Below are positions 3,765 to 18,759 of a DNA stretch of 64,000 nt, one piece after another. Both the position numbers and the translations under genes were made by a program. The notes under the pieces are model-generated. The model did not search any database, had not been told where the DNA came from, and saw only the letters and a program-made list of their open reading frames with translations. Where the stretch lies: positions 1 through 64,000 of the forward strand of contig CAIXZF010000006.1 of assembly GCA_903923925.1 (NCBI GenBank). Reading direction: 5' to 3'. The stretch is from an uncultured Bacteroidales bacterium. GTDB lineage: Bacteria; Bacteroidota; Bacteroidia; Bacteroidales; CAIXZF01. Every line of letters begins with the position of its first letter. Position 1 is the first letter of the stretch.

Positions 3765-4248
3765 ATCACATCAATGAAGCATCAACATGTCCAGAACTAT
3801 TCCATCATCAAAACGGACTCAAATATTGCAAGAGAATTATCTGTCAACGTTCTTATTTGCTGATCATCTGAATTTACAGGGAGTCGAACATTTTATATTT
3901 ACATAACATGCTTACATACTGTCATTGAAGTATTTAAGCTCATCAGCTGATGAGCTTAATGTCTAATTTTTAGCTAATTTGGAGAGGTATAGGTGGATAG
4001 TTATGCCTTAAACCGTTTTCCAGAAATGTTCTTACAAACAGCTACTTAAACTTGAATCTGATGATCAGATTTCTGCAGCACCAGTAACAAACTGGCGTCC
4101 CGAAAGTGAAGTCCCCACTGGAACATCCTACCATAAGACGATAACACTCCAATGATGTTTGCCAAAAATTGATGATGTTTTAATTTTTTATGACATCTAA
4201 ACTTTAAAGGCTATCTGTTGTTATTTCATCTGAAGTAATTTATATCCG
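3765..4248. other. Gene-free stretch with decayed attachment-site-like sequence and a palindrome
   Basis: No convincing gene in these 484 bases. Near 3879-3889 is GGGAGTCGAAC, the inner part of the tRNA-Arg 3' repeat described below. About 100 bases to its right (3890-3990) match, imperfectly, the bases right of the better copy at 5850-5872: both hold ACATGCTTAC, AAGTATTTA and TTTTAGCTAATTTGGAGA in the same order. This looks like an old end of an integrated element. The rest shows no recognisable signal. Confidence 0.5.
3934..3959. repeat. Perfect 26-bp palindrome
   Basis: The arm TTAAGCTCATCAG is followed directly by its exact reverse complement, with no loop. It lies inside the decayed element end, about 290 bases before the TMEM175-like gene. 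It lacks a T-run, so it is not an obvious terminator; it could be a recombinase or regulator binding site or a bidirectional hairpin. Confidence 0.8.
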
Positions 4249-4830
4249 ATGACAAAAAACAGATTAGAAGCCTTCAGCGATGGTGTTATTGCAATTATTA
4301 TCACCATAATGGTATTGGAACTACAAATCCCGCACAGTCCTGATTGGAGCGGATTAAGACCGCTAATTCCCAAGTTTTTAAGTTATGCATTAAGTTTTTT
4401 GTACTTGGGAATTTATTGGGGTAACCATCATCATTTACTCCATACCGTTAAAAGGGTTAACTCTGCAATTATCTGGTCGAACACAAATTTATTGTTCTGG
4501 CTATCGTTGGTTCCTTTTGTAACAGGCTGGATGGGAGAGAATAGTTTCAGCAGGAATACTGTAATTCTTTATGCTGTGGATATGTTACTTTGTGGTGCTT
4601 CATACTATTTTCTTCAGAAAAGCATAATGAGTGAACACCAATTCGAAGGTGACCTTAAAGATGCATTGGAAAAGTCAAACAGAAAAGGTATAATTTCTCT
4701 GGTGTGTTATTCAGCAGCAATTCCTCTGGCCTTTGTAAATTCGATGGTATCCGGTATTATCTTCCTTGTGGTTTCAGTAATGTGGCTGATTCCGGAAAAA
4801 AGTATAGAAAAAGCACTGTCGGACAGATAA
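4249..4830 (+). CDS. TMEM175/DUF1211 family membrane protein (probable potassium channel)
   Basis: A 193-residue integral membrane protein. It opens with MTKNRLEAFSDGVIAIIITI, containing the R-x3-FSDGV signature (residues 5-13) that defines the TMEM175/DUF1211 family; in this family the FSD residues stabilise the first helix of a potassium-selective pore. About five to six hydrophobic segments follow, with LYLGIYWGNHHHLLH near residues 58-72. Bacterial members act as tetrameric potassium leak channels in the inner membrane. It stands alone between two tRNA-derived repeats, so it is probably cargo of the island rather than part of an operon. The family call is firm; transported ion is by analogy. 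Confidence 0.85.
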   Translation: MTKNRLEAFSDGVIAIIITIMVLELQIPHSPDWSGLRPLIPKFLSYALSFLYLGIYWGNHHHLLHTVKRVNSAIIWSNTNLLFWLSLVPFVTGWMGENSFSRNTVILYAVDMLLCGASYYFLQKSIMSEHQFEGDLKDALEKSNRKGIISLVCYSAAIPLAFVNSMVSGIIFLVVSVMWLIPEKSIEKALSDR

Positions 4831-4845
4831 TGACACCCAGAAACT

Positions 4846-4915
4846 AAAAAGCCCGCTAAAACATTGTGTTTCAGCGGGCTTGCTATAACTTCTGTGAACC
4901 TGAAGGGAGTCGAAC
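4846..4915. repeat. 70-bp direct repeat of tRNA-Arg 3' end plus terminator (att-like copy)
   Basis: These 70 bases match 18637-18706 with only two differences (4889 and 4892). The left part is the hairpin AGCCCGCT...AGCGGGCT and the right part, 4893-4915, is identical to the last bases of the tRNA-Arg gene through the T-arm. Beyond 4915 the tRNA sequence stops matching. This is what integration of an element at a tRNA 3' end leaves behind: one complete tRNA and one orphan 3' end, here 13.8 kb apart. Confidence 0.85.
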
Positions 4916-5039
4916 TTAAATCATGGCTAATAGCTGCCTTCTTAGCAAGATAGTATTTGATTGATTTTTCGACAAAGCTTTCAAATAATAGCAACTCATG
5001 AAAATAGACATTTAGCGGCTAATTTTGTATCTTTGTACA

Positions 5040-5561
5040 ATGGATGAGAAGAAAACATACATAGATATAATAATTGATAAAATAACAAATTCTATTGAGA
5101 ATTCAATATCTTGAGATGTTTTTGATACTGAGATTATTCAGTTGACTTCTAAAGCTAAAAGGCAGATTAAAAAAGCAGAATGGTTTTTTGACTGGAACAA
5201 AGAAATTGGCCAATCAGATAGACAAGTTTTTAAATTGGTTATACGCAATAATGAGACTATTATTCAAGGATTGATAAGTATTTCAGATTACAAGGATCAT
5301 ATTTACATGCATTTAATAGAGAGTGCAAAATTTAATAAGGGGAAAACAAAGATATATCTTGGAGTACCAGGAAATCTTGTTGCATTTGCTTGTAAATACT
5401 CATTTAAAAAAGGATATAATGGGTATATTGCATTTGATTCAAAGACAAAATTGATTCAGCATTATCAAGATTCATTAGGGGCTAAATGGTTCAAAGGTAC
5501 CCGCATGTACATTGACTCAACAGCAGCCAAAAAATTGATAGGACAATATTTTAAAATTTAA
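5040..5561 (+). pseudogene. GNAT-like acetyltransferase of a small two-gene module, interrupted by in-frame TGA
   Basis: An ATG at 5040 opens a frame reading MDEKKTYIDIIIDKITNS... that meets TGA at 5112-5114 and then continues without a frame change to 5561 (about 173 residues in all). The protein sense on both sides of the stop is continuous (NSIENSIS, stop, DVFDTEIIQL), and a GGA-to-TGA change would explain it. Residues after the stop include YMHLIESA, KIYLGVPGNLVAFACKYS and a GYNGYIAFDSKT stretch, resembling GNAT-fold proteins I recall in Bacteroidota beside a small partner like the next gene. A TTG at 5142 could restart a 139-residue product. A TATCTTTG -7-like box lies at 5028-5035. Function unproven. 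Confidence 0.6.
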
Positions 5562-5565
5562 TGTC

Positions 5566-5730
5566 ATGGGACTAATAAGAGAACCAAAAAATGTGGATTT
5601 TACAGTAATTGATAATCCATGGACCGATGAAGAAAGACGAGAGTTCAGCGAATTAATAAAAAAAGAAAAGGCTAAACACCGGACTCAGATAATGACAACC
5701 AAAACAACAAAGAAAAAACAAATTGCTTAA
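5566..5730 (+). CDS. Small partner protein of the acetyltransferase-like gene (54 residues)
   Basis: A 54-residue frame starts 5 bases after the stop of the preceding gene. It begins MGLIREPKNVDFTVIDNPW, followed by TDEERREFSELIKKEK and a lysine/threonine-rich tail. Short charged proteins starting M-G-x-I-x-E-P-x-x-V-D-F next to this acetyltransferase-like family are something I remember from other Bacteroidota, suggesting a conserved pair, possibly toxin-antitoxin-like. The partner is broken by a stop codon here. No domain is recognisable; it may act as a DNA- or partner-binding peptide, but that is a guess. Confidence 0.6.
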   Translation: MGLIREPKNVDFTVIDNPWTDEERREFSELIKKEKAKHRTQIMTTKTTKKKQIA

Positions 5731-5849
5731 TGCATAAACGTCCGCATCAGATATTTATGAAGCTTCAAATAAGTCGCATTATCCGTACAGTTATAAGCAC
5801 ACAAAAAAAGCGACCTACAAAACAATGCTTGTAAGTGGCTGATTTTTAG

Positions 5850-5872
5850 TGTGAACCTGAAGGGAGTCGAAC
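5850..5872. repeat. 23-bp exact copy of tRNA-Arg 3' end (att-like core)
   Basis: Identical to 4893-4915 and to the tRNA-internal copy at 18684-18706, in the same orientation. The bases on its right are not tRNA. It marks a second integration at the same tRNA target. Confidence 0.85.
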
Positions 5873-6045
5873 TCAGCGTATTTAGTGTACATGCTTACGT
5901 ATTGTATTTTAAGTATTTATGAACTGCATTTGATAAGTTTTGGGTATAGCTTTTAGCTAATTTGGAGATTTGGAAGTATGTTCGGGAGGCATATTACTAC
6001 AGCAGTTTATATCTTGGCCTTCATTCAATCTCAGAAATTTAAACT

Positions 6046-6073
6046 ATTCGGATAAATATCCGGATTTTTTTTT
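6046..6073 (+). terminator. Rho-independent terminator
   Basis: The stem ATTCGGAT / ATCCGGAT (one G-T wobble) with the loop AAAT is followed directly by nine T residues (6065-6073). It points along the plus strand and would stop transcription coming from the acetyltransferase-like pair before the large secreted gene at 6305. Confidence 0.75.
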
Positions 6074-6199
6074 AAAATTTCAAGTAGAAACTTTTCATAT
6101 GATCGTTTATTCATTGAATATTTTTTTGATTTCATATATCTGAATTTTTATTTACTTTCGACAAGTAGCAATCTGACGGACTCTTTAACCTTCCACAAA

Positions 6200-6230
6200 A
6201 AACATGAATACATTTATTGCATTCATGTTT
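6200..6230. repeat. Inverted repeat upstream of the large secreted gene
   Basis: The arms AAACATGAAT and ATTCATGTTT (10 bp each) are separated by 11 bases, 74 bases before the ATG at 6305. No T-run follows. It may be an operator or a leader hairpin of the downstream gene. Confidence 0.6.
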
Positions 6231-6304
6231 ACATTAAAACAGACCTCATGTCAGTATAGGTATTCATTATGAATTATAATTCTAGTATTCTAAAATCCTG
6301 AGAG

Positions 6305-9300
6305 ATGAAATCAATTTCCCTGTTTTTTTTGGCGATGTTTTTTGCAGCAAGCCTTTCTGCCCAGAACACAAAATTCACCTTGTTCAACCAGGCGAATACC
6401 CCTGTATTTACCACCAATTCATTTAAGCAGGTAGCAGTTGGGAAAAATAATAACATATGGGTGGGTAGCAGTGGTGGCGGGCTATACAAATACGATGGAA
6501 CTACATGGACAAAGGCCACAATTTTATTAACGCATACCGTTAGATCAATTCTGAGGGCGCCTGACAGCAGTATTTTTATCGGGCAAGCCGGAACCAATGC
6601 TGTACAGGCAACCGGAGGAGGAGTCGAAAAATTTCCGAATGCAACATTCACCAATACCCACTATGGTATGGGTAATGGATTGCCAAGCAGGTATGTGAAT
6701 GGCATTTGTGTGAGCAACAATGGTACTGTTTGGGCGGGTTGCGGACAGGATCTTACGGGTTCAGTAACAGATGAAGGAGGAATAGCTTATATGACTTCGG
6801 GTGGCTCATCGTTCACGAAAATAACTGACGGACTTCCTTCTGGTGATATACGAATTATGGCAGTTGGCTGCAGCAACACAGAGGTGTGGGCAGCAGTTGA
6901 CAGAGCCTGCCCAACATCACCCTGTACAGCTGCAGGAATATTACGATATTCCTGGCAAGGAAATTATTTAGGAAAAATTGATGCAACAAATTCACCAATT
7001 CCCTTTGCAACTTCGGGTCTCGTTGTAAGGGCAATTAGTTTCACTCCTGCCGGAAATGCCTGGGTTGGATTTAATACCAATGGAGGAATGGCAGTGAGTT
7101 CAATGGGATATTGGACAGTTATTCCTTCTGGCAGTACGATATTACCTGCAGGTTCGGCAATTAATGCCAATGCCATAAGATCCGACCGCTCTGGAAAAGT
7201 ATACATAGGCACAACAATGGGCTTACTGGTTTATACGGGTGGCCCGGTTAATAATCTGAATTCTTATCAGCTTTATACTACTGCCAATGGACTGCCATCC
7301 AATAATGTTACCGGGATCGAATGCTATGATTTAAAAACAACCTGGATTACTACAACAGCCGGGATAGTGAAAATGGAGGAAAGTTATCTTCCAAATCCCA
7401 ATGGCTGGAGGTTTTCCAATTCGGATGCCAATATGTGGCCTGATACCTGGTGGATGAGGTTTGATTATAATTTTGATCCTTTTTTAGGTGGAGTGGCACC
7501 ATTTCCAATGAAAGACGGGAGTGTTATCCCAAGTAATTCTTTCCCCGACTGGCCACAATTTGTGGATCTTGTGGGTGAAGGTCAGTGTTATTCTATGGCC
7601 GGGGGGGTAAGGTATATCCGCAATATTGCCCAAACAAAGTACTTTAAAATTATTGGTGATTGGCATGGAAGTTGCCAGGGATTTGTAGAAACCAGTTTTA
7701 TGGTTTGGGACAGCATTGATTACTTTCGGAATACCTTCCCGAATGTAGGACCCTGGACTTCTAATAAACTATTCGAACTTCCGATTAATAATGAAAACAG
7801 AAGGGTTATCAATAAGCTGATGCTCAGCCAGTTTCAATCTCCTTATTACGTGTTTTCAAATACAAGGAAGTATGTTACTCCTGTTCAGACACTTACAGAT
7901 TTAAAAGCAATGCTGAAATCGAATACAAGAAATCTGAAGGGATTAAACCTCTATAATCAGCACGGAAAGCAAGCGCACATCGTGAACCCTTACAAAACTT
8001 CTAAGGATCCAATAGACCCGGATCTTGAGTATATCTATGTGTATGACAATAATTACCCGAACGATACCACCCGCAAAATCAGGGTATATATTTCAGATGA
8101 TGTTTGGTATTATAATATGTCCGAAAATGCAGGTATACTGGCACAGGAGTGGGGTGGTGCAACTGCTCATAAAGGTCTTAACCTGGATACAACAGTGAGA
8201 TATTGGTATCAACCTGTGTTATTGGCGAATGTTGCAAAAAAACAACCATTAATTAAATTGCTTCCTGCAACAGGGAATATAGAAATCTACAATTCAGATT
8301 CCTGTGATATTTCAATCACCAATCTTTCTAATCAGACCATCGGATGTCTGGGTGGTATACTGGTAAATACTATCCCGGATGCAATACCAATGCTGATATT
8401 TTCAACGGATCAACTTTCACCTAAAGGTTATTTTCTTCCTGAGGATGAATACAATGCAGAGATGCTGAATTTTACCAAACAAGATGTAAGCTTTTCTGTT
8501 TTTAATAATTCTACAATGTTCGGGTATTATCGGAAAGCACCTGCTCTTAATCAGAAAGACCGGTTTCTTGTCGGTACTGATGGCATTGAAGTCCGCAATC
8601 CCGACAGCACTCCCAAATCTATTCAATTGAGTTGTTCATTTGAGGATGCTGGAAGTGAAATGAGTATTACAATCAGAAATTTAGGCGCTCCAACAAATTC
8701 AATATGTGCAATTCAACGTTTTAACAGTTCGGAAGTAAAACTGGTGAACAATGGTGTTGCCTCAAAGTATGATCTTTCTATCCGGTATCTGTCTAATACA
8801 GGAGAATCAGCATTTACACACGACAGCATTATAATACCGGCAAACACGGCGCACGTTATTAGCCCTGAATGGGAAAGCCTGAAAACTGCTGTCATGAAGA
8901 TCTTTGTGGATAACGGGAATAATCTTTCTTATGAAGATACCTTATATTTCGGGAATTCAGAATTGCCAAAGTTCCTAAGTTATCCCACCAGCCTGAGTAT
9001 TCCAAAGACGGGAACTATTGATACAGTGTTTATTGCCAATTCAGGTGGAGGTGTTTTAAACTGGACTGCTGAATCGAGCGATACCTCCTGGTTAAAACTT
9101 ACAGCTGCTTTTTCAGGAGTGGATACAGGTCGCATTTTGGTCCTGAGTCTCAGCAATACCGGAGGTGCAAGAAGTGGTACCATCACTTATACTGCAAGCG
9201 GTGCTGCAAATAGTCCGTATATTATAAATGTTAAACAGATTGGAAAAATCAATGCTCCACTAGGGGTCAATGCATCAGATGGAGTGTCTTCTGCCGGAGT

Positions 9301-10495
9301 CAGTGTTTCCTTCCACAGGAGCGATAGCGCTTCGCACTACAGGGTTTACCGTTCAAATAATGCAGGTAGTTCCTTCAGTCCAATTAGTTCGTGGAGAAGT
9401 GATACCGTATTTACGGATACAACCTGTGTGAAAGGCCGGTTTTATTATTACAGTGCCAAAGCGGCTTCTGATAGCCTGGGATCAGATTCAACAGGTTACA
9501 GTGCATCTGATGATGGCTGGCGTGCAGGTTTTACTGCCGATTTTACCGCTAGTGGCGAGTGCCAGGGACAGTCAGTATTATTTAAAGAAAACTGCACTGC
9601 TCATGAAAAAATCAATTATTTGTGGGATATCAATAACGATGGAACAATTGATTATACTGGAGAAAAATTTGATCATATATTTAATACAGCAGGTAATTAT
9701 GAAATAAAGCTTACTGCTACAGATAGCAGCTCATTTACGGAAACTGTTCTTAAATCTGTTGTGATAAAACCATTTCCTCAACTATCGTTTGTTCAGGATA
9801 CGATTGTTTGTGCAAATCAATCTGTTGTTCTTGAAGCCGGGGCTGGTTTTCAGTCCTATTTATGGTCGACCGGAGCAACAACGTCGTCAATCACTATCGA
9901 TTCAACTGGTATAGGACTGGGTATGTCGCCTGTATCTGTAAATGTGGTTCATTCGAATGGGTGTTCGGCAATTGCTACTACGAGAATCACCTGGGATACC
10001 TGTACGAATGCCGGTGGATTCAGTCTTTCAGGAATTGCAACCTATGATAATGCCTTTTTGACTCCACTTAATTCTATTGAAGTCCGGTTAATGCAGGGTG
10101 GCACAGTCGTTTACCAAACTACTACCGATGCGCAAGGCCATTATTCATTTACAAATATTCCGAATGGCAGTTACGAGTTGTCACCAGTTTGCATCAAGCC
10201 CTGGGGTGGTGTAAATTCTATTGATGCGCTTTTAATTCTCAGGAAGTTTGCCGGTTTGGTAAATTTACAGGGAGTTCGTTTGATTGCTGCTGATGTAAAT
10301 GCTTCTAATTCTGTTAATTCTGTGGATGCATTGCTCGTTGCCAAAAGGTTTGTGGCCATGATCAGTTCCTTTACTGCCGGTGATTGGGCTTTTGAAAAAC
10401 CCGTCATAGTTGTAAGCGGACCAGCCAATCAGACGCTTGATATAAAAGGAGTGGTTTATGGTGATGTTGACGGATCGTTCGTGCCATTGCAATAA
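6305..10495 (+). CDS. Giant secreted multidomain protein: propeller, papain-like domain, BACON, FN3, PKD, dockerin-like tail
   Basis: A 1396-residue exported protein with a signal peptide at residues 1-19 (SLSAQ). Residues 30-360 are repeats of the two-component-regulator propeller type (NIWVGSSGGGLYKYDG, GLPSNNVTGI). About 380-620 hold a region with GQCYSMAGG near 427, HIVNPYKTSKD near 557 and YVYDNNYP near 577; this Cys-His-Asp order suggests a papain-like or C39-like peptidase fold. Then come a BACON-like domain (about 887-980), FN3-like (980-1075), PKD (1080-1160), Ig-like (1160-1235), a carboxypeptidase-regulatory-like fold and a dockerin-like end with two NSxDALLxxxRF motifs (about 1300 and 1338) closing in GDVDGSFVP. 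No standard T9SS tail is seen. Likely a surface enzyme or adhesin; substrate unknown. Confidence 0.75.
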   Translation: MKSISLFFLAMFFAASLSAQNTKFTLFNQANTPVFTTNSFKQVAVGKNNNIWVGSSGGGLYKYDGTTWTKATILLTHTVRSILRAPDSSIFIGQAGTNAVQATGGGVEKFPNATFTNTHYGMGNGLPSRYVNGICVSNNGTVWAGCGQDLTGSVTDEGGIAYMTSGGSSFTKITDGLPSGDIRIMAVGCSNTEVWAAVDRACPTSPCTAAGILRYSWQGNYLGKIDATNSPIPFATSGLVVRAISFTPAGNAWVGFNTNGGMAVSSMGYWTVIPSGSTILPAGSAINANAIRSDRSGKVYIGTTMGLLVYTGGPVNNLNSYQLYTTANGLPSNNVTGIECYDLKTTWITTTAGIVKMEESYLPNPNGWRFSNSDANMWPDTWWMRFDYNFDPFLGGVAPFPMKDGSVIPSNSFPDWPQFVDLVGEGQCYSMAGGVRYIRNIAQTKYFKIIGDWHGSCQGFVETSFMVWDSIDYFRNTFPNVGPWTSNKLFELPINNENRRVINKLMLSQFQSPYYVFSNTRKYVTPVQTLTDLKAMLKSNTRNLKGLNLYNQHGKQAHIVNPYKTSKDPIDPDLEYIYVYDNNYPNDTTRKIRVYISDDVWYYNMSENAGILAQEWGGATAHKGLNLDTTVRYWYQPVLLANVAKKQPLIKLLPATGNIEIYNSDSCDISITNLSNQTIGCLGGILVNTIPDAIPMLIFSTDQLSPKGYFLPEDEYNAEMLNFTKQDVSFSVFNNSTMFGYYRKAPALNQKDRFLVGTDGIEVRNPDSTPKSIQLSCSFEDAGSEMSITIRNLGAPTNSICAIQRFNSSEVKLVNNGVASKYDLSIRYLSNTGESAFTHDSIIIPANTAHVISPEWESLKTAVMKIFVDNGNNLSYEDTLYFGNSELPKFLSYPTSLSIPKTGTIDTVFIANSGGGVLNWTAESSDTSWLKLTAAFSGVDTGRILVLSLSNTGGARSGTITYTASGAANSPYIINVKQIGKINAPLGVNASDGVSSAGVSVSFHRSDSASHYRVYRSNNAGSSFSPISSWRSDTVFTDTTCVKGRFYYYSAKAASDSLGSDSTGYSASDDGWRAGFTADFTASGECQGQSVLFKENCTAHEKINYLWDINNDGTIDYTGEKFDHIFNTAGNYEIKLTATDSSSFTETVLKSVVIKPFPQLSFVQDTIVCANQSVVLEAGAGFQSYLWSTGATTSSITIDSTGIGLGMSPVSVNVVHSNGCSAIATTRITWDTCTNAGGFSLSGIATYDNAFLTPLNSIEVRLMQGGTVVYQTTTDAQGHYSFTNIPNGSYELSPVCIKPWGGVNSIDALLILRKFAGLVNLQGVRLIAADVNASNSVNSVDALLVAKRFVAMISSFTAGDWAFEKPVIVVSGPANQTLDIKGVVYGDVDGSFVPLQ

Positions 10496-10584
10496 AGATT
10501 CTTTGATGGTTCGGAAATGTGGATTGTAAACGCATATATACTAAATTTGATGCAGGATCAAATACTGACATCAAACTTTAGCTT

Positions 10585-11136
10585 ATGTGTAAACTGTTCC
10601 GGAATTCCCTGATTCTTATTTTTGTCCTGGCCAGCAATCTGATGCTGTCAGGACAAATAACATATACCCGTTATGATGATCTGCCGGGTGTGAATAAAAG
10701 CTATAAACCTGCTTTCAGTCCCGATTTTCCTGAGTGGGCCGGGATGCTCTATAAGGATGATATCAACTTTAATACCATTAATAAAGCATTTGAGGACTAT
10801 ATGTCTCTGCATAAAGGTGAAAAAAGTGCCATCATTCGTTATTATAAAATATGGCGAAGGGCTTGCGAACCCTATGTAAAAGAGGATGGAAGTATTCTCC
10901 TGCCGGATATCAAAAAGTATTACGAGAACCTCAGGAATAAACAGCTTGGTTACAGGAATAAGGTAAAGCCATCCGGTAAATCAGCTTCTGACTGGACATT
11001 TTTAGGACCCAAAGAAACATTCTGGCTTAATGAAAACGGTTCTGCCACAGCTCCACCATCTTGTCCCTGGCAGGTAAATGTTTATTCTTTTGATGTGGCT
11101 GTAACAAACGACAGTATCCTACTAAGTATTATATAA
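10585..11136 (+). pseudogene. 5' remnant of a secreted BNR-type protein, truncated by a deletion fusion
   Basis: A 183-residue frame with a signal peptide (residues 1-24, ending LSGQ) and a mature start like the protein at 354: both have a charged N-terminal region and then W-x-x-x-GP (WTFLGPKETFW here, WEPIGPFNT there), followed by DVAVTNDSI where BNR proteins begin their propeller. Coding sense is lost at about 11116-11124, where the DNA switches to the middle of an unrelated gene in another frame, and the frame ends at 11136. The propeller and secretion tail are missing. A short exported product could still be made. Confidence 0.75.
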
Positions 11137-11792
11137 GAGCCTATGCAACCGACAGTATTGGAACCAGTTATGGCAATACATATTCGTTTACGACCCTTGT
11201 GGGAGGAGTGGGGATAGTGATGGATATAGACGGCAATAATTACCATTCTGTTAACATTGGAGACCAGGTTTGGTTACAGGAAAATCTCAGGGTAACTCAC
11301 TATCGGAATGGGGAAGCAATCCCAAATATTCTGAACAGCAGCAATTGGAGCAATTTAATGCTGGGAGCATTTTGTGTTTACCAGAACAATAACACTCTTG
11401 CTACTACGTATGGATATCTTTACAACTGGTACTCAATAACCGATGGTCGAAAAATTGCACCTACAGGCTGGCATGTAGCAACAGAGGCTGATTGGCAGAA
11501 GCTATTCACTTATCTCGGCGGAATCGATTCTGCCGGTGCAAAGATGAAGGAAGCGGGACTCTCATTGTGGTCAGCTCCAGACCTAGGAGCAACAAATGTG
11601 AGTGGTTTTACCGCCAGACCGGGCGGATTCAGACTATTCAACGGCACATTTTCCGAACTTCAAAACAGTGCATTCTTCTGGAGAGCAGATCAGACTTCAG
11701 GTTTTTATGAACTTAAGAACCAGACGGTAAACGTTAATTTTTCTGAGTGTTCCAGGAATTTTGGCTTAAGTGTGAGATGTGTTAAAGACTAG
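11121..11792 (+). pseudogene. 3' remnant of a FISUMP-domain surface protein
   Basis: From about 11121 the frame reads TKYYIRAYATDSIGTSYGN, the end of a fibronectin-like domain, then a complete Fibrobacter succinogenes major paralogous (FISUMP) domain: MDIDGNNYHSVNIGDQVW, LQENLRVTHYRNGEAIP, APTGWHVATEADWQKL, and the end SVRCVKD. Such proteins are exported, but here the signal peptide and first domains are gone because the sequence joins, out of frame, to the BNR-protein remnant at about 11120. A GTG at 11199 or the ATG at 11220 could start an untargeted product of up to 197 residues. The stop is one base from the stop of the converging gene at 11794. Role of FISUMP domains is not known. Confidence 0.7.
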
Positions 11793-11793
11793 G

Positions 11794-14700
11794 CTATGGT
11801 ACATAAGAGCCGTTTACATCGCCACGGCAGATTGCCTTTACCCTGACTTCGGCATTGGCATTTCCAACGACTATGTTTGCAGGCTCGAAGAGCCAGTCTG
11901 ATTGAGGATAGTTCATTATGTAACCCGTATAACGTTTTGCAATTAACAGTGCATCTATAGAATTCAGCCAGGTATTGCCATCTATATATGCAGCCTGCAA
12001 ACGAAGGTTGGTGAGTTGAGAGATTTCGGTAAAGTGTTTTAAAATCAGCAGGGCATCAACACTATTTACTCCACCCCAGCTTCGCGAAGAAGAACATTCG
12101 ATGGTATAGTTTCCGGGTTGTACATTCGAAAAACAAAATTCCCCGGGGCTTCGGGTAAGAAAGCTGTCGATAACAACTTCTCCTGACTTTAGTTTCACCA
12201 TAACAGAATCAACCACAGTGCTGTCGGCATTGTCGTACTCAATGTCTCCATAAACCCAATTCCCTGTTGGGATAGTCTGGTATTCATAGGCACCCATGTC
12301 CACTGTTTCCACGATTCTTGGATTGCCATCGAGGTCTGTTGGGTCGTTTATAAGGCTGTTATTACCGGTGTTAATGCAGGGGGAGCAGCCGCGGAGATGC
12401 CAGTCGTCGAGGAATACTGATGAATCTCTTCCTTGCTTTACACAGGGGTGAACAAATAAAGGATCTTGTGAGATATTTCCAAAACCGGGATACCCATTCT
12501 GCATTGTAGAGTTAGTGACAGTGATTATAGAATTATTATTGTTAGCGATTCCTCCAGTGTTTGTCCAAAGGATTGAGTTTGAAATAGTGAGCGTGTCTGG
12601 CGTAAATGATACAACATCAGTGGAAAGCCGATGGTAGCCTGTTTCAATCAGCCCGTGATTTGTATTGCTTTTGTTATTACTTAGAACACTGTTCACTATG
12701 GTTGTCTTACTACCATTACCAATGGAAATAATCGCATTATTAAGATTAGAACTACCAGATTCATTATTAATTAACAAGGAGTTAGATATTTCTGTCAGGC
12801 CCTCATTCATCAACACTCCTCCTAAACGTTGAGAAAAATTATTGCTGAATTGGCAATTATTGATATTCAATTGATGACCGCCATTGTTGTAAAAAGCTCC
12901 TCCGATTGTAGAAAAACCATTTATAAATCTCGAAGTGGTGATGCTGCATGTTCCATAATTACTAATAGATCCTCCTGTGTAAAGATTACTGGTCCAAATC
13001 ACATTAAACATACCCCCGGTTTGAAAGACCTGCATTATTCCTGATGCATTTCCGTCAAACTGTGAGGAATCTATAGTAAGGTTTCCTGAATTATAAATTG
13101 CGCCACCATGTCCAAATGAATAATTACGGAAAAAGGTACAGTTTTGAATCAGGAAATTCCCTGAAACGTTTTTAATAACAGCTGGGGCCACCATAAAAGG
13201 GAAGACATAATATCCATTAATAAATTTAACGGAGTCAGATTTGTTATACTGGAAATCACAATCTTTCAAGATAATATTCCCTAAATTATAGATACTTCCT
13301 GTGCCATTAACATTTTGAACAAAACGGCTATCTGAAACTTCTGCCTGACCAGAATTGGAAATTGGTGCTGCATAATTATGATGAAAGAAATTGTTTCTCA
13401 GAATGCAACTGTTGTTGCTGCTTATTGATGTGCCGGTGTTTTCATTGAAATAGCAATCCTTAACTTCAAGTATGTTATTGTTGGAAATCACTGATTTCAA
13501 CAATTGAAAGCGTGAAGATGAAACATATAACGTAGCACTGCTTTCATTGCTCATATTAGTAGAGCTGTTATTGTGAACCATTGAAGAATTGGTTAATTTC
13601 ATAACCCCTGAATTGTAGATTATTGACTGATTCCCAAAGTTGTTTTTGAAATTGCAATTCGTCATTGCCACTTTTCTTCCTAATCCAATTTCCATACATC
13701 CCCCTCTCGACAATAACCCGGTTCCATTGGTCATAGTATGAGAAAAACTAATCCCATCAAAGTAATTTGTACTCGTATCCGAGGCATTACTCAAGTCATT
13801 GAGAAGAAATAGCTTACATGAATTATCGGCAGTATCAGCAGACACCCCGATATTTCCTGAAAAAATCGTATTCATCAATACTGAATCTCTTTCTGCCGGG
13901 TCATTTTCAAAGCCAGAAAAACCTCCATAAACCTTCATTCCATTAATAACCTGGAAATACTTTTGACGGTCCTGGTCTGAACAGGGTAAATAGCTTCCAT
14001 TCTTTAGCCAGAACTGGGTTTCGGGAGGAGCTTCCCGTAATGCCTGATATAACATTGTATATCCAGGGTACCGGCATGTAGGAGCATTGCCTGCCAAAGC
14101 ATTTTCCCAGGAATTACCATTATTTGAATTCTGATTGGTTGTGTCTACATAAATTACGCCTGTTGAGTAGTCAACAAAATGAGGATTGATATTATTCGCT
14201 TCTATTGCTCCCAAATCAACAATGCCATCAATAACTCTGGTAGATCCATAGTAATCCAGACTGTCCAATGTGAGGAGAAAACTATTTTGTCCTCTGTTCA
14301 CGTAAGGAGAACATTGTGGAATTGACCAATCAGCATTAATTCCATTATATGTATCACCAATACCAGCGGAGGGTTGTAAAAATTCGGGATTTTCATTAGA
14401 TACTTCATTACTTAAAGGAAAACCTTTTATGCAGCAAGAATACAAAGTCGAATTGATAGGAATTTCGGATTGATTGTTCCAAACAATGCAGTTTTTTAGT
14501 GTTAACGGTGTTCCTCCGATACCAGAGTGTGCATTGTTGGCAAAGGTGCAGTTGATCACTTCCATGTTTGGGTTAATGTTATGTATACCTCCATTTCCAC
14601 CAAAGAATATTCCGTTGTACCACTTTGTTGTAGCCAGATTATTTACTATTACGCTGTTTATCAATTGAGTTGGATTGTAAATTCCGCCGGCATAACCTTT

Positions 14701-17025
14701 TGATTTATTATTGGCTATTAAGGAGTTACGAATGTTCATCACGCCGGTATTATATAATCCTCCTCCTCCCTTGGCTTCAGCAACAGTAGAAGATTCAACA
14801 TTTGCGAAATTATAGGAAACCTGACTAAAGTTCAGTGACAGAAAACCACCGGTATCATTAAAAACTCCTCCTCCCTTTTCATTTGCCGTGTTATATCTTA
14901 TTTCGGATCGGGAAATGTTTAAAGCACCTGAATTGTAAATTCCACCTCCTCTGCTATAAGCATATGGAGTCCCAACCTGGTTACTATCCACAGAACTATA
15001 TTGAATGTTTGTTACTCCCAATGGCAAATTTGAGAGTCCGCCTCCCCTGGAAATTGAATTGTTCCCTGCAATTTTTGATTCTGAAAGGAATAATAAACCT
15101 CTGTTAATGAGTCCGCCTCCTTCTCCTCCACAGCTATTATCTGAGATCCTTGTCTTATGGAATAAGAGGATCGATAAGGTATCAGAAACCACACCGCCAC
15201 CATCAACAGCAGCGTAATTGTTCCTCAGGATACAATTTTCAAAGAGGATTTGCTGGTTTTTTTTTACCCATAGTCCACCGGCCTGGTTGTTTGTTTCTGT
15301 ACCATTGGCATATCCTTCCTGAACAATGATATTTTCAAGATAAATAGTATCAGAGGGAGCAATAGTTTCAGCTTCCTGGAGAATTACATGATAGGCATTG
15401 TCAGTCACAAGGTTCTGGTTGCCGATGTTGCCGCTGAGTATGCTATAGTTATTGGTATCTCTTTCTGATGAGTATGATTCAAAACCCGAAAATCCTCCCA
15501 AAACATGAACACCCTTCCCAAATGTAAAGCCAACCGTTCTTTCATCCCAGCGAGATGCTGTATATATCCCTTTTTTTACCCAGATATTTGTTCCGGCAGG
15601 AGCATCTTTCATCACTTCATACAATAATGTCTTTCCCCTGTATTTGCAGCTAAAGGCATTCCCTCCAAGAGCATCAGGCCAGCTTGTACCAAGACCATGA
15701 TAGAAGAAAGTATCATTCACATAAATTTTACCAGGAGAATAGTCGATAGTGTAGGGTTCAGCATTGCTCAGATCGGTTTCATAGGCTCCCATATCGAGTG
15801 CCCCATCCATGACGCGGGTATTCCCCGCCAGATCAACAGTTAGATTCGAAAGGAGAAGAGTGCTATCTCCGGTATTTACACAAGGAGAGCATGGGAATAA
15901 GGTCCAATCGGGTATAAACCCACTGTAATCTAGACCAACAACTGCATTGGGGAACCTGAAATATGGGTTTTCTGCCGTATTATTCGTGCCGGCAAATCCA
16001 CCCTGGATACAGGAATTGGAGATTAAAGGAGTGCCTGAGTTTAATATGCCACCCCCACCCCAGATAATCGAATTTTGTATTAATGTTGAAGTATTATAAA
16101 AGACATAAACATCTTTGCCAGAATTGTTAACAATAGTGGAGTTTCGAATGGTGTTATTTCCCGAAAATGAAAAAACACCACCCCCGTTTGTAGCTTTATT
16201 GTTATAAATTAAACAATTGATAATGTGGCTGTTGGAATTCATTGCAATAGCTCCTCCCATGTAATAACCATCATTATTGTTGAAAACAGAATACAGGATA
16301 TACGATGCCTGTGATGAGAAAATACAGATAGCACCTCCTTTCGCATTTGAAAGCAAGTTCTTGTTATTATAAAAGTGACAATGACTAACAGTCATCAGAC
16401 CTTCATTATACAGCCCACCACCATAACTATAAGCAGTGTTATCGTATATTGTACATTGAAATACCGTAAGCTTTGTATTCGGGTAGATATAAATTCCACC
16501 TGCAATAAGCCTTTTGTCATTTTGAGGAGCTCCATTCTCTAAAGCATAGCCATCTGCAATATATAAGCCATCCAGATTTGAAACCTGAGTCCAATTATTC
16601 CCGGTAGTTTTAACAACATGATGACAATTGTCTGTTTTCAGACTATCGTAGCCAATATTGCCTGAAAAAATTGTTTGGTGTGTCTTCCAGTCTCTGGCAG
16701 TTATATTGGTTTCGTTTCCAGCAAAACCACCATAAACAGACACATTTTGCAGGATTTCGAATGATTTAGTCCTGTCATTATCCACACAAGGCAGATAGGT
16801 TCCTTCCGCCACCCAGAACTGTGTCCCCGAAACTGAATGCCGCAAAGTATCCGACAAACGCGTATATCCACCAGTTCCCGGATTGTTACCCGGTAAGGCA
16901 TTGGCCCAGGATGAACCATCCATTGTGCCGGAACCACCCGGAGTTATGTATACTATTTGGGCGGAGGAAATTGCAGAAATTAATGTGAAAGAAATAATCA
17001 GGATGAAGTTAGATAGCTTTTTCAT
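11794..17025 (-). CDS. Giant secreted right-handed beta-helix protein with three modules and dockerin-like tail
   Basis: A 1743-residue exported protein. I place the start at the ATG at 17025, because MKKLSNFILIISFTLISAIS is a clear signal peptide; the frame stays open upstream to 17100 only through octamer repeats. The body has three copies of a module of roughly 450-550 residues. Each opens with a YV/YI...G-x-SW-x-x-AL-x-GN stretch, then FWVAEGTYLPC-type and VYGGF-x-GxE segments and SGNIG, continues with beta-helix turns such as GGGIYN and ISNNN, and ends near SPCVNTG and DMGAYE. The last 150 residues carry a carboxypeptidase-regulatory-like fold and two dockerin-like NSxDALLIxKxF motifs, ending GDVNGSYVP, as in the protein at 6305. 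Probably a surface adhesin or polysaccharide-binding protein; no catalytic site is evident. Confidence 0.8.
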   Translation of the reverse strand: MKKLSNFILIISFTLISAISSAQIVYITPGGSGTMDGSSWANALPGNNPGTGGYTRLSDTLRHSVSGTQFWVAEGTYLPCVDNDRTKSFEILQNVSVYGGFAGNETNITARDWKTHQTIFSGNIGYDSLKTDNCHHVVKTTGNNWTQVSNLDGLYIADGYALENGAPQNDKRLIAGGIYIYPNTKLTVFQCTIYDNTAYSYGGGLYNEGLMTVSHCHFYNNKNLLSNAKGGAICIFSSQASYILYSVFNNNDGYYMGGAIAMNSNSHIINCLIYNNKATNGGGVFSFSGNNTIRNSTIVNNSGKDVYVFYNTSTLIQNSIIWGGGGILNSGTPLISNSCIQGGFAGTNNTAENPYFRFPNAVVGLDYSGFIPDWTLFPCSPCVNTGDSTLLLSNLTVDLAGNTRVMDGALDMGAYETDLSNAEPYTIDYSPGKIYVNDTFFYHGLGTSWPDALGGNAFSCKYRGKTLLYEVMKDAPAGTNIWVKKGIYTASRWDERTVGFTFGKGVHVLGGFSGFESYSSERDTNNYSILSGNIGNQNLVTDNAYHVILQEAETIAPSDTIYLENIIVQEGYANGTETNNQAGGLWVKKNQQILFENCILRNNYAAVDGGGVVSDTLSILLFHKTRISDNSCGGEGGGLINRGLLFLSESKIAGNNSISRGGGLSNLPLGVTNIQYSSVDSNQVGTPYAYSRGGGIYNSGALNISRSEIRYNTANEKGGGVFNDTGGFLSLNFSQVSYNFANVESSTVAEAKGGGGLYNTGVMNIRNSLIANNKSKGYAGGIYNPTQLINSVIVNNLATTKWYNGIFFGGNGGIHNINPNMEVINCTFANNAHSGIGGTPLTLKNCIVWNNQSEIPINSTLYSCCIKGFPLSNEVSNENPEFLQPSAGIGDTYNGINADWSIPQCSPYVNRGQNSFLLTLDSLDYYGSTRVIDGIVDLGAIEANNINPHFVDYSTGVIYVDTTNQNSNNGNSWENALAGNAPTCRYPGYTMLYQALREAPPETQFWLKNGSYLPCSDQDRQKYFQVINGMKVYGGFSGFENDPAERDSVLMNTIFSGNIGVSADTADNSCKLFLLNDLSNASDTSTNYFDGISFSHTMTNGTGLLSRGGCMEIGLGRKVAMTNCNFKNNFGNQSIIYNSGVMKLTNSSMVHNNSSTNMSNESSATLYVSSSRFQLLKSVISNNNILEVKDCYFNENTGTSISSNNSCILRNNFFHHNYAAPISNSGQAEVSDSRFVQNVNGTGSIYNLGNIILKDCDFQYNKSDSVKFINGYYVFPFMVAPAVIKNVSGNFLIQNCTFFRNYSFGHGGAIYNSGNLTIDSSQFDGNASGIMQVFQTGGMFNVIWTSNLYTGGSISNYGTCSITTSRFINGFSTIGGAFYNNGGHQLNINNCQFSNNFSQRLGGVLMNEGLTEISNSLLINNESGSSNLNNAIISIGNGSKTTIVNSVLSNNKSNTNHGLIETGYHRLSTDVVSFTPDTLTISNSILWTNTGGIANNNNSIITVTNSTMQNGYPGFGNISQDPLFVHPCVKQGRDSSVFLDDWHLRGCSPCINTGNNSLINDPTDLDGNPRIVETVDMGAYEYQTIPTGNWVYGDIEYDNADSTVVDSVMVKLKSGEVVIDSFLTRSPGEFCFSNVQPGNYTIECSSSRSWGGVNSVDALLILKHFTEISQLTNLRLQAAYIDGNTWLNSIDALLIAKRYTGYIMNYPQSDWLFEPANIVVGNANAEVRVKAICRGDVNGSYVP

Positions 17026-17053
17026 AGACAGTAATTTGGTTGGTGGGGGGAAT

Positions 17054-17085
17054 GTGCGAATGTGCGGATGTGCGAGTGTGCGGGT
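17054..17085. repeat. Octamer tandem repeat, four units of GTGCGRRT
   Basis: Four consecutive 8-bp units: GTGCGAAT, GTGCGGAT, GTGCGAGT, GTGCGGGT. They differ only at positions 6 and 7, where all four A/G combinations occur. The array sits 29-60 bases before the start codon of the beta-helix protein (minus strand), so it is in or near its leader. Confidence 0.85.
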
Positions 17086-17107
17086 GTTGAATTTTGACAA
17101 ACATTTG

Positions 17108-17350
17108 TTAACGCAGTAATGTCACAGAACCCTGAAGCAAATGAAAATCGTCATCATAATTATTTAATAGACGATTATAAGAATCATAATTTTTAGTATT
17201 AGATGAGAGGCTCCAGATTCCTTCGATTGGGTCTAAATTTGAAATTCTATTTTTAAAATAACTTCCACATTCTTCTTCCGTACCCATGCATTGACCATAG
17301 ATATTGTATGAGAAAGAAATGAAGATAAATATTAAATATATAAATCTCAT
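17108..17350 (-). CDS. Short exported protein, probably truncated
   Basis: I start it at the ATG at 17350, giving an 80-residue product beginning MRFIYLIFIFISFSYNIYGQ, a good signal peptide. The mature part has CMGTEEECG and the segment NLDPIEGIWSL, a pattern I recall near the start of longer exported proteins of unknown function in Bacteroidota. It ends abruptly (SVTLLR) just before the octamer array, so it is likely the first part of a gene whose remainder was lost. No function can be given. It lies on the same strand as the FRG gene and the beta-helix gene. Confidence 0.5.
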   Translation of the reverse strand: MRFIYLIFIFISFSYNIYGQCMGTEEECGSYFKNRISNLDPIEGIWSLSSNTKNYDSYNRLLNNYDDDFHLLQGSVTLLR

Positions 17351-17472
17351 AATACGGTGTGTTAAAAAATTCAAAGTTTCATTCAATAATCATATGTAAA
17401 GTTGATAAAAAAATAGGATACGTTATTATATTTTGCTTCTTTTTTATTGATTTCAATGATAAAGGTGTAAAC

Positions 17473-18258
17473 TTACTGTTCCATATTTACTCCTATTATC
17501 CTATTATCAATTTCCTCATTTTTTCTATAATATGCCCAGTCAATTGTAACATCTCTATCATTTAAATCCTTTAATATCATCATTTTGTATGCGGCAGGGA
17601 TTACAATTTTCAAGAGATTATCACTAAAGCTCATTTGATTCTCTATAGGAAAAACAGCATTCTCTATTGGTTGAATTAAAAACCGCCCATATTGTCTAAA
17701 TCTCCTTCTTTCTGCCAAATCATTAGGTTCCCACTGAAAAAAAGGTAGATTTATTAAGTACCAATTATTGATTTTAAATGGGTCCTGTTCTAATAGAACA
17801 CTTTTATCTGAATCATTTATTTGATGCTGACTGGGGCATTTTAAAATCCATAACTGTGCGTCCTCTTTTATATGGTTTTGATCAAAGACTGCAAATAGCA
17901 GTGCAATTTCCCAATTTATTGTCCAATCAAGAAGTCTTGTTAATAAACCAAGATGTTGACCTTGAGTAAGAAGTGACCATTTTAGCCCATATAAATATTT
18001 CTCAAATTCAGGATTAGATTGTAATCCCATATCAGTTTTAGCTAATTTTGAAAAGGCCTCAAATACTCGTTTCTCCTTCAGTGAGAAATTATCAATTGTG
18101 TCAGATTGGCGAAATAGGTTTGGTAAAAGCTTATAATGATTATTTGGTTGTCCCCGATAAAATTCATTGAAAATCTGGCTTTTTTGATACCGTTCTAATT
18201 CAATATTCTGAATAATTGTATTAATTTCCTCATATGACCTACATTCTAAAATTTTCAT
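17473..18258 (-). CDS. FRG-domain protein
   Basis: A 261-residue soluble protein with the FRG domain named after its F-x-R-G motif: FNEFYRGQPNNHYKLLPNLFR (in two pieces, FYRGQ near residue 35), QGQHLGLLTRLLDWT near 100-114 where most members have QH-x-G-x-TRLLDWT, and RFRQYGRFLIQP near 188-199. FRG proteins have no proven general activity but are common in mobile islands and in or near phage-defence loci. Its place next to a recombinase remnant and tRNA supports the idea that it is mobile cargo. Length is typical. The domain call is firm; a defence role is inference. Confidence 0.8.
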   Translation of the reverse strand: MKILECRSYEEINTIIQNIELERYQKSQIFNEFYRGQPNNHYKLLPNLFRQSDTIDNFSLKEKRVFEAFSKLAKTDMGLQSNPEFEKYLYGLKWSLLTQGQHLGLLTRLLDWTINWEIALLFAVFDQNHIKEDAQLWILKCPSQHQINDSDKSVLLEQDPFKINNWYLINLPFFQWEPNDLAERRRFRQYGRFLIQPIENAVFPIENQMSFSDNLLKIVIPAAYKMMILKDLNDRDVTIDWAYYRKNEEIDNRIIGVNMEQ

Positions 18259-18279
18259 ATTACGCTTTTTAAATTACTT

Positions 18280-18519
18280 TTAGATTTGTTTCTTTTCTGG
18301 AAGCCAGTACATTGCATCAACACCCCTATTTATAACCTTTGTTGATTCTGAAGCTGCATACCTTATATACCTGCTAAATACTTTGTAATTCTTATGACCA
18401 GTTGTTTGCATTAAGGAAGCTGCCGGTACACCGTCAAGAATATTCATTGTAATATAAGTCCCTCTCATAATATGACTAACTACTGAGTAACTGAAATAAT
18501 ACAATTGTACTTTTCCCAA
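18280..18519 (-). pseudogene. C-terminal remnant of a tyrosine recombinase (integrase)
   Basis: A 79-codon frame whose product has the end of a phage-type integrase: SHIMRGTYITM (the H-x-x-R box), then TGHKNYKVFSRYIR with the second histidine and the tyrosine nucleophile. The N-terminal DNA-binding part and the first arginine region are missing; upstream codons run only about 12 residues before a stop. It lies 166 bases from the tRNA-Arg gene, the usual place for the integrase of an element inserted at that tRNA. It can no longer be active by itself, so the island is probably fixed. Confidence 0.8.
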
Positions 18520-18636
18520 AACCGACTCATTACCGCGATAATAGGCACTATTCTACAATTGACAGGTTCGATTACTAAACCAAACTAAACAATACCCTTT
18601 TTGCAATAATTATACCCCAATTTACACCCTTAAAAG

Positions 18637-18671
18637 AAAAAGCCCGCTAAAACATTGTGTTTCAGCGGGCT
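18637..18671 (-). terminator. Rho-independent terminator of tRNA-Arg
   Basis: Read on the minus strand after the tRNA, the stem AGCCCGCT / AGCGGGCT (18641-18671) is followed by a run of T (the A-run at 18637-18641 on the plus strand). Confidence 0.85.
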
Positions 18672-18706
18672 TGCTATAATTTTTGTGAACCTGAAGGGAG
18701 TCGAAC
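18637..18706. repeat. 70-bp direct repeat at the intact tRNA-Arg (att-like copy)
   Basis: This is the partner of 4846-4915 (two differences). It holds the terminator hairpin and the 3' end of the intact tRNA; its rightmost 23 bases (18684-18706) are also found at 5850-5872. Confidence 0.85.
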
Positions 18707-18759
18707 CCCCAACCTTCTGATCCGTAGTCAGATGCTCTATCCAATTAAGCTACAGGTCC
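18686..18759 (-). tRNA. tRNA-Arg (anticodon ACG)
   Basis: A 74-base cloverleaf on the minus strand. The acceptor stem pairs GGACCTG with CAGGTTC (one G-T pair) and the discriminator is A. The D-arm region reads AGCTTAATTGGATAGAGC, the anticodon arm is TCTGA-CTACGGA-TCAGA with ACG at positions 34-36, and the T-arm contains GGTTCGACTCC. ACG decodes CGN arginine codons after deamination of A34. CCA is not encoded. The 3' end is the target of repeated integration, with partial copies at 4893-4915 and 5850-5872. Confidence 0.95.

Follow-up and report, generated by a model that had tools for sequence, protein, structure and literature searches.

The region considered here lies downstream of the tRNA-Arg(acg) gene of an uncultured Bacteroidales bacterium, where the 3' end of the tRNA recurs in direct repeats. 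The whole stretch of DNA analysed, hereafter the window, covers bases 1 to 64,000 of contig C6 (96,105 bp), part of a draft genome (G000) of 4,615,474 bases in 117 contigs. tRNA-Arg(acg) is the sole tRNA gene in the window; its 3' end, as placed by ARAGORN, points to low coordinates, so that the stretch between 18.68 and 3.87 kb lies downstream of the gene. Copies of a 23-bp core taken from the tRNA 3' end divide 3.87-18.68 kb into three units, namely A (12.8 kb, from the tRNA to 5850), B (0.96 kb, from 5850 to 4893) and C (1.0 kb, from 4893 to 3867). It is likely that in the stretch 3867-18706 three units have been inserted serially at the tRNA-Arg(acg) 3' end, by a site-specific recombination that uses this core. 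The junctions, read in the sense of the tRNA, have the order arm, core, terminator, and their parts are as follows.

18685..18759, minus strand: tRNA-Arg(acg), the anchor (ARAGORN); its 3' 22 bases form the proposed recombination core
18684..18706, minus strand: core copy within the tRNA, exact 23-mer, junction of unit A and the tRNA
18624..18683, minus strand: tRNA-side end of A, with an intrinsic terminator reading out of the tRNA (hairpin 18672-18640); together with the core, 93% identical to 4833-4915
5873..5968, no strand assigned: distal arm of A, homologous to 3890-3985
5850..5872, minus strand: core copy, exact 23-mer, junction of B and A
5768..5849, minus strand: tRNA-side end of B, with a hairpin of its own; this end and the core together match C41:3101-3205 at 95% identity (105 bp)
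4893..4915, minus strand: core copy, exact 23-mer, junction of C and B
4833..4892, minus strand: tRNA-side end of C, with a terminator (hairpin 4881-4849), placed by its identity to the A end and by a terminator scan
3890..3985, no strand assigned: distal arm of C, homologous to the A arm, with a 26-bp perfect palindrome at 3934-3959
3867..3889, minus strand: outermost core copy of the stack, decayed, with 5 mismatches, the last 12 bases exact and a homologous arm adjoining

The 23-mer TGTGAACCTGAAGGGAGTCGAAC is found exactly at 4893, 5850 and 18684, as a first-pass annotation of the sequence had claimed, and chance copies prove rare: among 40 simulated sequences with the dinucleotide composition of the window there were no exact sites, and sites with up to 5 mismatches had a mean of 0.05 and a maximum of 1. 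The direct repeat of the tRNA 3' end that is expected at the far border of tRNA-integrated islands is thereby present (the exact 23-mers at 4893 and 5850). The decayed copy, which had been placed at 3879-3889, does exist but extends further, over 3867-3889. Throughout the genome, the 22-mer with up to 3 mismatches gives five sites, i.e., the three in the window, one at C41:3184 (2 mismatches) and one in another tRNA-Arg gene (3 mismatches).

The tRNA-side ends of A and C agree over 83 bp with 6 mismatches (18624-18706 against 4833-4915), somewhat longer than the 70 bp first reported to be shared together with the terminator, and the same 15-pair hairpin with its T tail stands at 18672-18640 and at 4881-4849. 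Their distal arms are also homologous, over about 95 bp past the core: the alignment covers 117 nt at 71%, a search of the whole genome gives E 5e-10, and the homology reaches a z of 17 in a shuffle test, in which the arm of B matches neither. The perfect palindrome of the C arm is degraded in the A arm. Regarding B, the terminator-like hairpin attributed to the 5850 copy is weaker; although it was missed by the terminator scan, the core with its flank folds with a z of about -2.4, and there is the nearly identical copy on C41. Thus A and C look, from their sequences, like related elements, and B, with different ends, lies between them. This pairing of the A and C ends across an unrelated B is what serial integration predicts, and fits stacked site-specific integration better than local duplication.

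Two further places in the genome carry sequence of the B end. C41:3101-3205 holds the B terminator end with the core, has no tRNA and adjoins a methyltransferase-like gene; C17:13133-13199, 82% like 5777-5843, belongs to a related stretch that has no full core and is about 110 bp shorter. These copies could represent a secondary site, or else the stack in the form that it has in another strain.

A second row at tRNA-Phe and its counterpart in a relative

Copies of a tRNA's own 3' end were sought 0.36-19 kb downstream of 36 tRNA genes of G000, and were found only for tRNA-Arg(acg) and tRNA-Phe, besides neighbouring tRNA-Ser and tRNA-Leu pairs. The second anchor is the following gene.

C109:46711-46783, minus strand: tRNA-Phe, anchor of the six-unit array C109:33398-46783 (L157)

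Six distal core copies with 1 to 4 mismatches delimit units of 3188, 2077, 1784, 2265, 1616 and 2381 bp. Each of the six sites, like the tRNA itself, is seen by eye to be followed by a terminator-like stretch; these stretches fall into a few types, and at the five sites tested they fold on the tRNA strand with a z of -2.6 to -4.9. An arm of 130 bp precedes five of the six sites (78-96% identity pairwise), the outermost site having none; the border of homology is abrupt and the neighbouring cargo is unrelated, only two pairs of units, Phe2/Phe3 and Phe4/Phe5, having cargo in common. All five arms have direct repeats GnGAAAT, at positions -102, -82 and -65 relative to the core, and these resemble arm-type binding sites of a tyrosine integrase. 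A short conserved reading frame within the arm was considered as a possible tail of an integrase. The Phe arm found no match in phages and plasmids, nor did a 21-base piece of it in viral contigs.

The Phe stretch contains 35 open reading frames (ORFs) of at least 70 aa, of which 19 were scanned, including all three of at least 300 aa; two of the 19 lie past the outermost site. Recognised cargo families can be found in four of the six units: HicB in units 2 and 3 (3e-11 and 6e-11), together with HicA in unit 3 (4e-24), a helix-turn-helix and M78 peptidase protein in unit 4 (7e-15), and ParE in unit 6 (2e-8). None of the 19 scanned ORFs matched a recombinase or a transfer protein. As far as scanned, the Phe units thus have the tandem layout, bounded by attachment (att) sites and devoid of integration or transfer genes, of cis-mobilizable elements (CIMEs), and the same layout is seen in B and C, where no integration or transfer genes were recognised.

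The only genome of the same family returned by the searches, G001, belongs to another genus. Downstream of its tRNA-Phe, at +941, the core recurs exactly, and the unit so bounded contains HicB and HicA; terminator-like hairpins can be seen by eye behind both cores, and the arm is 81-84% identical to the five arms of G000, the alignment with Phe2 and Phe3 continuing through the common cargo. HicB is 90-91% identical between the two genomes. Behind this unit there is a decayed second piece with a HicB remnant (unit and piece together form L183, +0 to +1180), followed by an ATPase gene 88% identical to the ATPase past the outer edge of the G000 array. The two loci look like length variants of one array, with six units in one case and one unit plus a decayed piece in the other.

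At tRNA-Arg, G001 has a terminator-like hairpin followed by a different neighbour gene, with no copy of the tRNA end within 28 kb. To the check for an empty site in relatives that the first-pass annotation had proposed, this locus gives only a partial answer: the core copy is absent, but the gene beside the tRNA is not the best match of the left neighbour of the stack, and the flank may not be orthologous. An attempt to define an empty Arg site by flank orthology was abandoned, the left gene (354-3764) belonging to a large paralogous family with its best G001 match elsewhere. More widely, in 15 relatives, G001 among them, no copy of the tRNA-Arg(acg) 3' end with 5 or fewer mismatches is seen in the 0.6-10 kb scanned downstream of the gene; for nine of the 15 the search could be extended to 13.5-29 kb, past the 12.8-kb distance seen here, still with none, the other six being short. 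The core with at most 1 mismatch occurs in 10 of 392 other genomes of the order, at 11 places, all of them tRNA-Arg genes. Two core copies in G378 were rejected as an array since they are two neighbouring tRNA-Arg genes, and a match at G013:C205 proved to be a tRNA-Asp with a similar terminator.

A scan of G001 covered 43 distinct tRNA genes (46 rows), and only the Phe case was counted as being of the same type. Other repeats were observed in it. tRNA-Asn (L188) has a copy of its 3' part at +369 with a 100-aa ORF of GIY-YIG type by eye, which looks like another kind of tRNA-linked element. tRNA-Val (L185), with a copy at +5792, carries a 5.8-kb element whose 426-aa ORF is by eye a tyrosine integrase, an ordinary integrative layout. 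tRNA-Pro (L192) has four exact 3'-end copies, 79 bp apart, near a contig end; there are also own-end copies at a tRNA-Leu pair, and two copies with 5 mismatches at tRNA-Asp.

Cargo of the three Arg units

The genes held between the core copies are listed from the tRNA outward.

18280..18519, minus strand: C-terminal remnant of a tyrosine recombinase, 79 aa (PHROG integrase families, E 6e-4 to 0.03)
17473..18258, minus strand: FRG-domain protein, candidate defence family PDC-S15 (Pfam PF08867, 5e-17; PADLOC, 2.5e-30)
6305..17100, no strand assigned: remaining cargo of A, i.e., a dockerin/PKD secreted protein, a 183-aa ORF, a FISUMP protein and a choice-of-anchor Q protein (profile matches)
5566..5730, plus strand: partner ORF of B, 54 aa, also found next to the first gene in 20 of 29 other loci examined
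5040..5561, plus strand: first gene of B, with its ATG at 5040 and a TGA interruption at 5112-5114; remaining ORF 5142-5561, 139 aa
4249..4830, plus strand: TMEM175-type potassium channel gene, the recognised cargo of C (Pfam PF06736, 1.6e-31)

In the remnant, which had been noticed earlier beside the tRNA, the HxxR, GH and Tyr region is visible by eye and the N-terminal part is missing. The 79-aa frame stands, with integrase matches that are weak: the best PHROG integrase family reaches 6e-4, next to one family of unknown function at 5e-4; an NCBIfam recombinase gives 0.015, far under its cut-off; and there is no Pfam match at 0.01. Relatives occur in 3 of 58 other genomes, at 29-40% identity. 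One distant relative, an integrase gene in G007 (L072:12163-13949), adjoins a core-like sequence and was set aside, that sequence being a tmRNA 3' end and hence a different target. In the Pfam, PHROG and NCBIfam scans, A holds only this remnant as a trace of an integrase gene, and B and C hold none. The tRNA-side end of A was probably rebuilt after the recombinase had lost its front part.

Guanine-cytosine (GC) content is low over the FRG gene and the remnant (17101-18600; 0.31) and in unit B (0.30), against 0.39 to the right of the tRNA, a contrast in favour of stacked integration. Within A, the 183-aa ORF is akin to the first part of a BNR-type gene on C109, and 8347-11120 is 73% like C109:18629-21399 of the same genome. 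The whole of window 6248-11120 is paralogous (73-76%) to C109:18629-21608, about 12 kb past the outermost site of the tRNA-Phe array.

The pair of genes in B forms an uncharacterised family with a first gene of about 175 aa and a partner of about 50 aa. Twenty first-gene relatives, selected because their frames are uninterrupted, measure 172-199 aa. Counting the present genome, relatives occur in 38 of 393 genomes drawn from the order; identity across the full ORF reaches 66%, a genome may have as many as four copies, and the partner is present (E <= 1e-3) in 21 of the 30 loci taken, this one included. No Pfam family was matched by more than one of the 20 members, and the pair has neither a PADLOC match nor a convincing relative among solved structures. 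From the two-gene layout it may be guessed to be a toxin-antitoxin (TA) pair; known type II toxin or antitoxin families were not recognised in it, the layout alone being TA-like. HicB and the B ORF were also sought in viral contigs, and none was confirmed.

In other genomes, some relatives of the B pair (L126, L147, L127, L129 and L136) stand in tandem or have attC-like repeats close by. Direct repeats stand near the pair at L126, L147, L140 and L143, 128 bp are common to L127 and L129 behind the pair, and all three stretches tested (L126, L147 and L127) have a GTTRRRY end. Such repeats suggest that the B-type pair may ride in integron cassettes elsewhere.

Proposed serial integration and its alternatives

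Stacked integration is the account of the Arg locus best supported by these comparisons, and a second stack of the same design at tRNA-Phe strengthens it; both the pairing of the A and C ends around B and this second stack speak for the original suggestion of at least two, perhaps three, stacked elements. Read in the sense of the tRNA, a unit would be laid out as core, terminator, cargo, arm and core. From this layout we infer an order of integration, circular intermediates, action in trans and the kind of recombinase involved. An incoming circle with an arm-core-terminator site would recombine at the tRNA 3' end, and its insertion would return the 3' end together with a fresh terminator and displace the earlier unit outward. 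The newest unit would adjoin the tRNA, C being the oldest and A the youngest. That older units would be pushed out and decay fits both the decayed outermost Arg core and the armless outermost Phe site. B and C would have moved in trans, most likely by means of a tyrosine integrase like that of which A keeps a remnant.

Several observations weigh against serial integration as described. The outermost Arg core is decayed and has no terminator, the core copy with the B terminator on C41 stands without a tRNA, and the recombinase remnant has no strong family match. The ends of A and C are unequal in age (93% against 71%), which would not be expected of simple sister elements unless the terminator side has been constrained or exchanged later. 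Most of A (6.3-17.1 kb) has a host-like GC content of 0.40-0.42, and part of it has a paralogous chromosomal block elsewhere, for which reason A may be composite. The Arg and Phe arms are not alike, and two recombinase specificities must therefore be assumed; among the scanned ORFs, Phe units 1 and 5 have no recognised family. As to relatives, a clean tRNA-Arg site, empty and with orthologous sequence on both sides, was not found; to the left of the stack stands a single gene from a large paralogous family, and base 1 of the window is also the first base of the contig. Nor is there synteny across the other side of tRNA-Phe (8.6 kb in G001 against 13 kb in G000), and hence the ATPase may itself be old cargo, and the G001 locus is not called an empty site.

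Since no recombinase was recognised in B, C and the Phe units, either it acts in trans, or the units are decayed descendants of larger elements. For movement in trans the chances appear about even. Under the second possibility, B and C would be CIME-type remnants of tandem integrative elements that lost their integrase and transfer genes by deletion, with no cassette system involved. Decay is the accepted route to such tandems (PMC5704250), a recombinase remnant is kept in A, and the first gene of B is interrupted. However, the same 130-bp arm, with sharp borders, stands at five Phe sites next to different cargo, and independent deletions would rarely end at the same arm border; moreover, the 19 of 35 Phe-stretch ORFs scanned gave no recombinase or transfer match, and a unit of the same type and only 941 bp is found in another genus. 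The sharp, constant arm across differing cargo and this short unit favour true small units, and on balance the decay explanation is rather unlikely.

Local duplication, or homologous recombination between fragments of tRNA 3' ends, would dispense with site-specific integration altogether. The copies are indeed direct repeats within one region, the block paralogous to C109 shows that segmental duplication occurs, and two pairs of Phe units have cargo in common. Yet every copy is delimited by the tRNA 3' end and a terminator, the cargo between copies differs, the ends of A and C pair around B, and the pattern recurs at tRNA-Phe, all of which makes this explanation improbable. An integron or a CALIN-type array (cluster of attC sites lacking an integron integrase), whose attC sites would resemble tRNA ends by chance, is the least probable: small units (about 1-3 kb) holding few genes, cargo of TA type, a row without integrase and B-pair relatives near attC-like repeats in some other genomes would agree with it, but the rows begin at a tRNA, GTTRRRY was found near the core at none of the 10 sites tested (one match on C41 lies about 114 bp off) and in all three attC-like controls, and the arms fold no better than shuffled sequences (z of -2.2 or weaker), a weak test, given that of the three controls L127 alone stood out (-3.5).

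To return to serial integration, the presence of two tRNA stacks in one genome suggests a tRNA-anchored way of collecting genes. It can be tentatively proposed, on the basis of one genome and one relative, both draft assemblies, that bacteria of this family of Bacteroidota keep a tRNA-anchored cassette system that is integron-like without being an integron. In such a system, circles of some 1-3 kb, with cargo only and a standard end made up of arm, core and terminator, would be inserted in trans at chosen tRNA 3' ends and pile up in rows, often with TA or defence genes, each restoring the tRNA and its terminator. If small units do move in trans, tRNA genes would be platforms for collecting cassettes, every insertion repairing the tRNA and its terminator, and rows of TA and defence genes could be gathered by a second route besides integrons. 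A search rule follows, namely a tRNA 3' end, a terminator and a constant arm repeated every 1-3 kb, and the question of action in trans becomes testable.

Relation to known systems

Accretion at tRNA or tmRNA genes, including units without an integrase, is established (PMC5704250, PMC3146451). Tandem accretion of integrative and conjugative elements (ICEs), integrative mobilizable elements (IMEs) and CIMEs at tRNA genes or gene 3' ends has been described (Pavlovic 2004; Bellanger 2011; both as cited in PMC5704250). The same source gives the likenesses to the present rows: att-bounded elements in tandem, some of them without integration or transfer genes, and a newcomer that enters beside the target gene. 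In contrast, two of the units at tRNA-Arg and all six at tRNA-Phe measure only 1.0-3.2 kb and have no recognised integrase, a short constant arm is present (Phe), and terminators stand at the junctions. The Dehalococcoides ssrA islands likewise show many direct repeats of a small-RNA 3' end downstream of the gene, and tandem islands, some without an integration module; 16 of those islands have a serine recombinase module, and their repeats are confined to 100 kb (PMC3146451). Here the targets are tRNA genes, the units are of 1-3 kb, and only a tyrosine-type remnant was found.

Tycheposons are tRNA-targeted tyrosine-recombinase elements with cargo. Unlike them, the units described here have no intact recombinase that could be recognised, are far smaller and form rows of up to six. 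TA cargo is known for integrons. Integrons and CALINs also string small cassettes together in rows, separated by a constant site (PMC11389934, where tycheposons are named as well), whereas the present sites have no attC motif, the rows are anchored at a tRNA, and no integrase was found among the ORFs scanned. Finally, the IntY islands downstream of tmRNA resemble the present units in their integration at a small-RNA 3' end, short direct repeat, defence cargo and lack of transfer genes, but each has an integrase gene of its own, and an 18-kb region common to three of them shows that they are not cassette-sized (PMC12595487).

Among the literature matches listed, judged by titles and the beginnings of abstracts, no description of such rows was met, which is no proof of absence. 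With regard to these systems, the array is a cassette-sized, integrase-less variant of the known accretion at tRNA genes, and what differs in it is the cassette size, the rows without a recognised integrase, the constant arm, and a terminator at nearly every junction, the outermost Arg core excepted.

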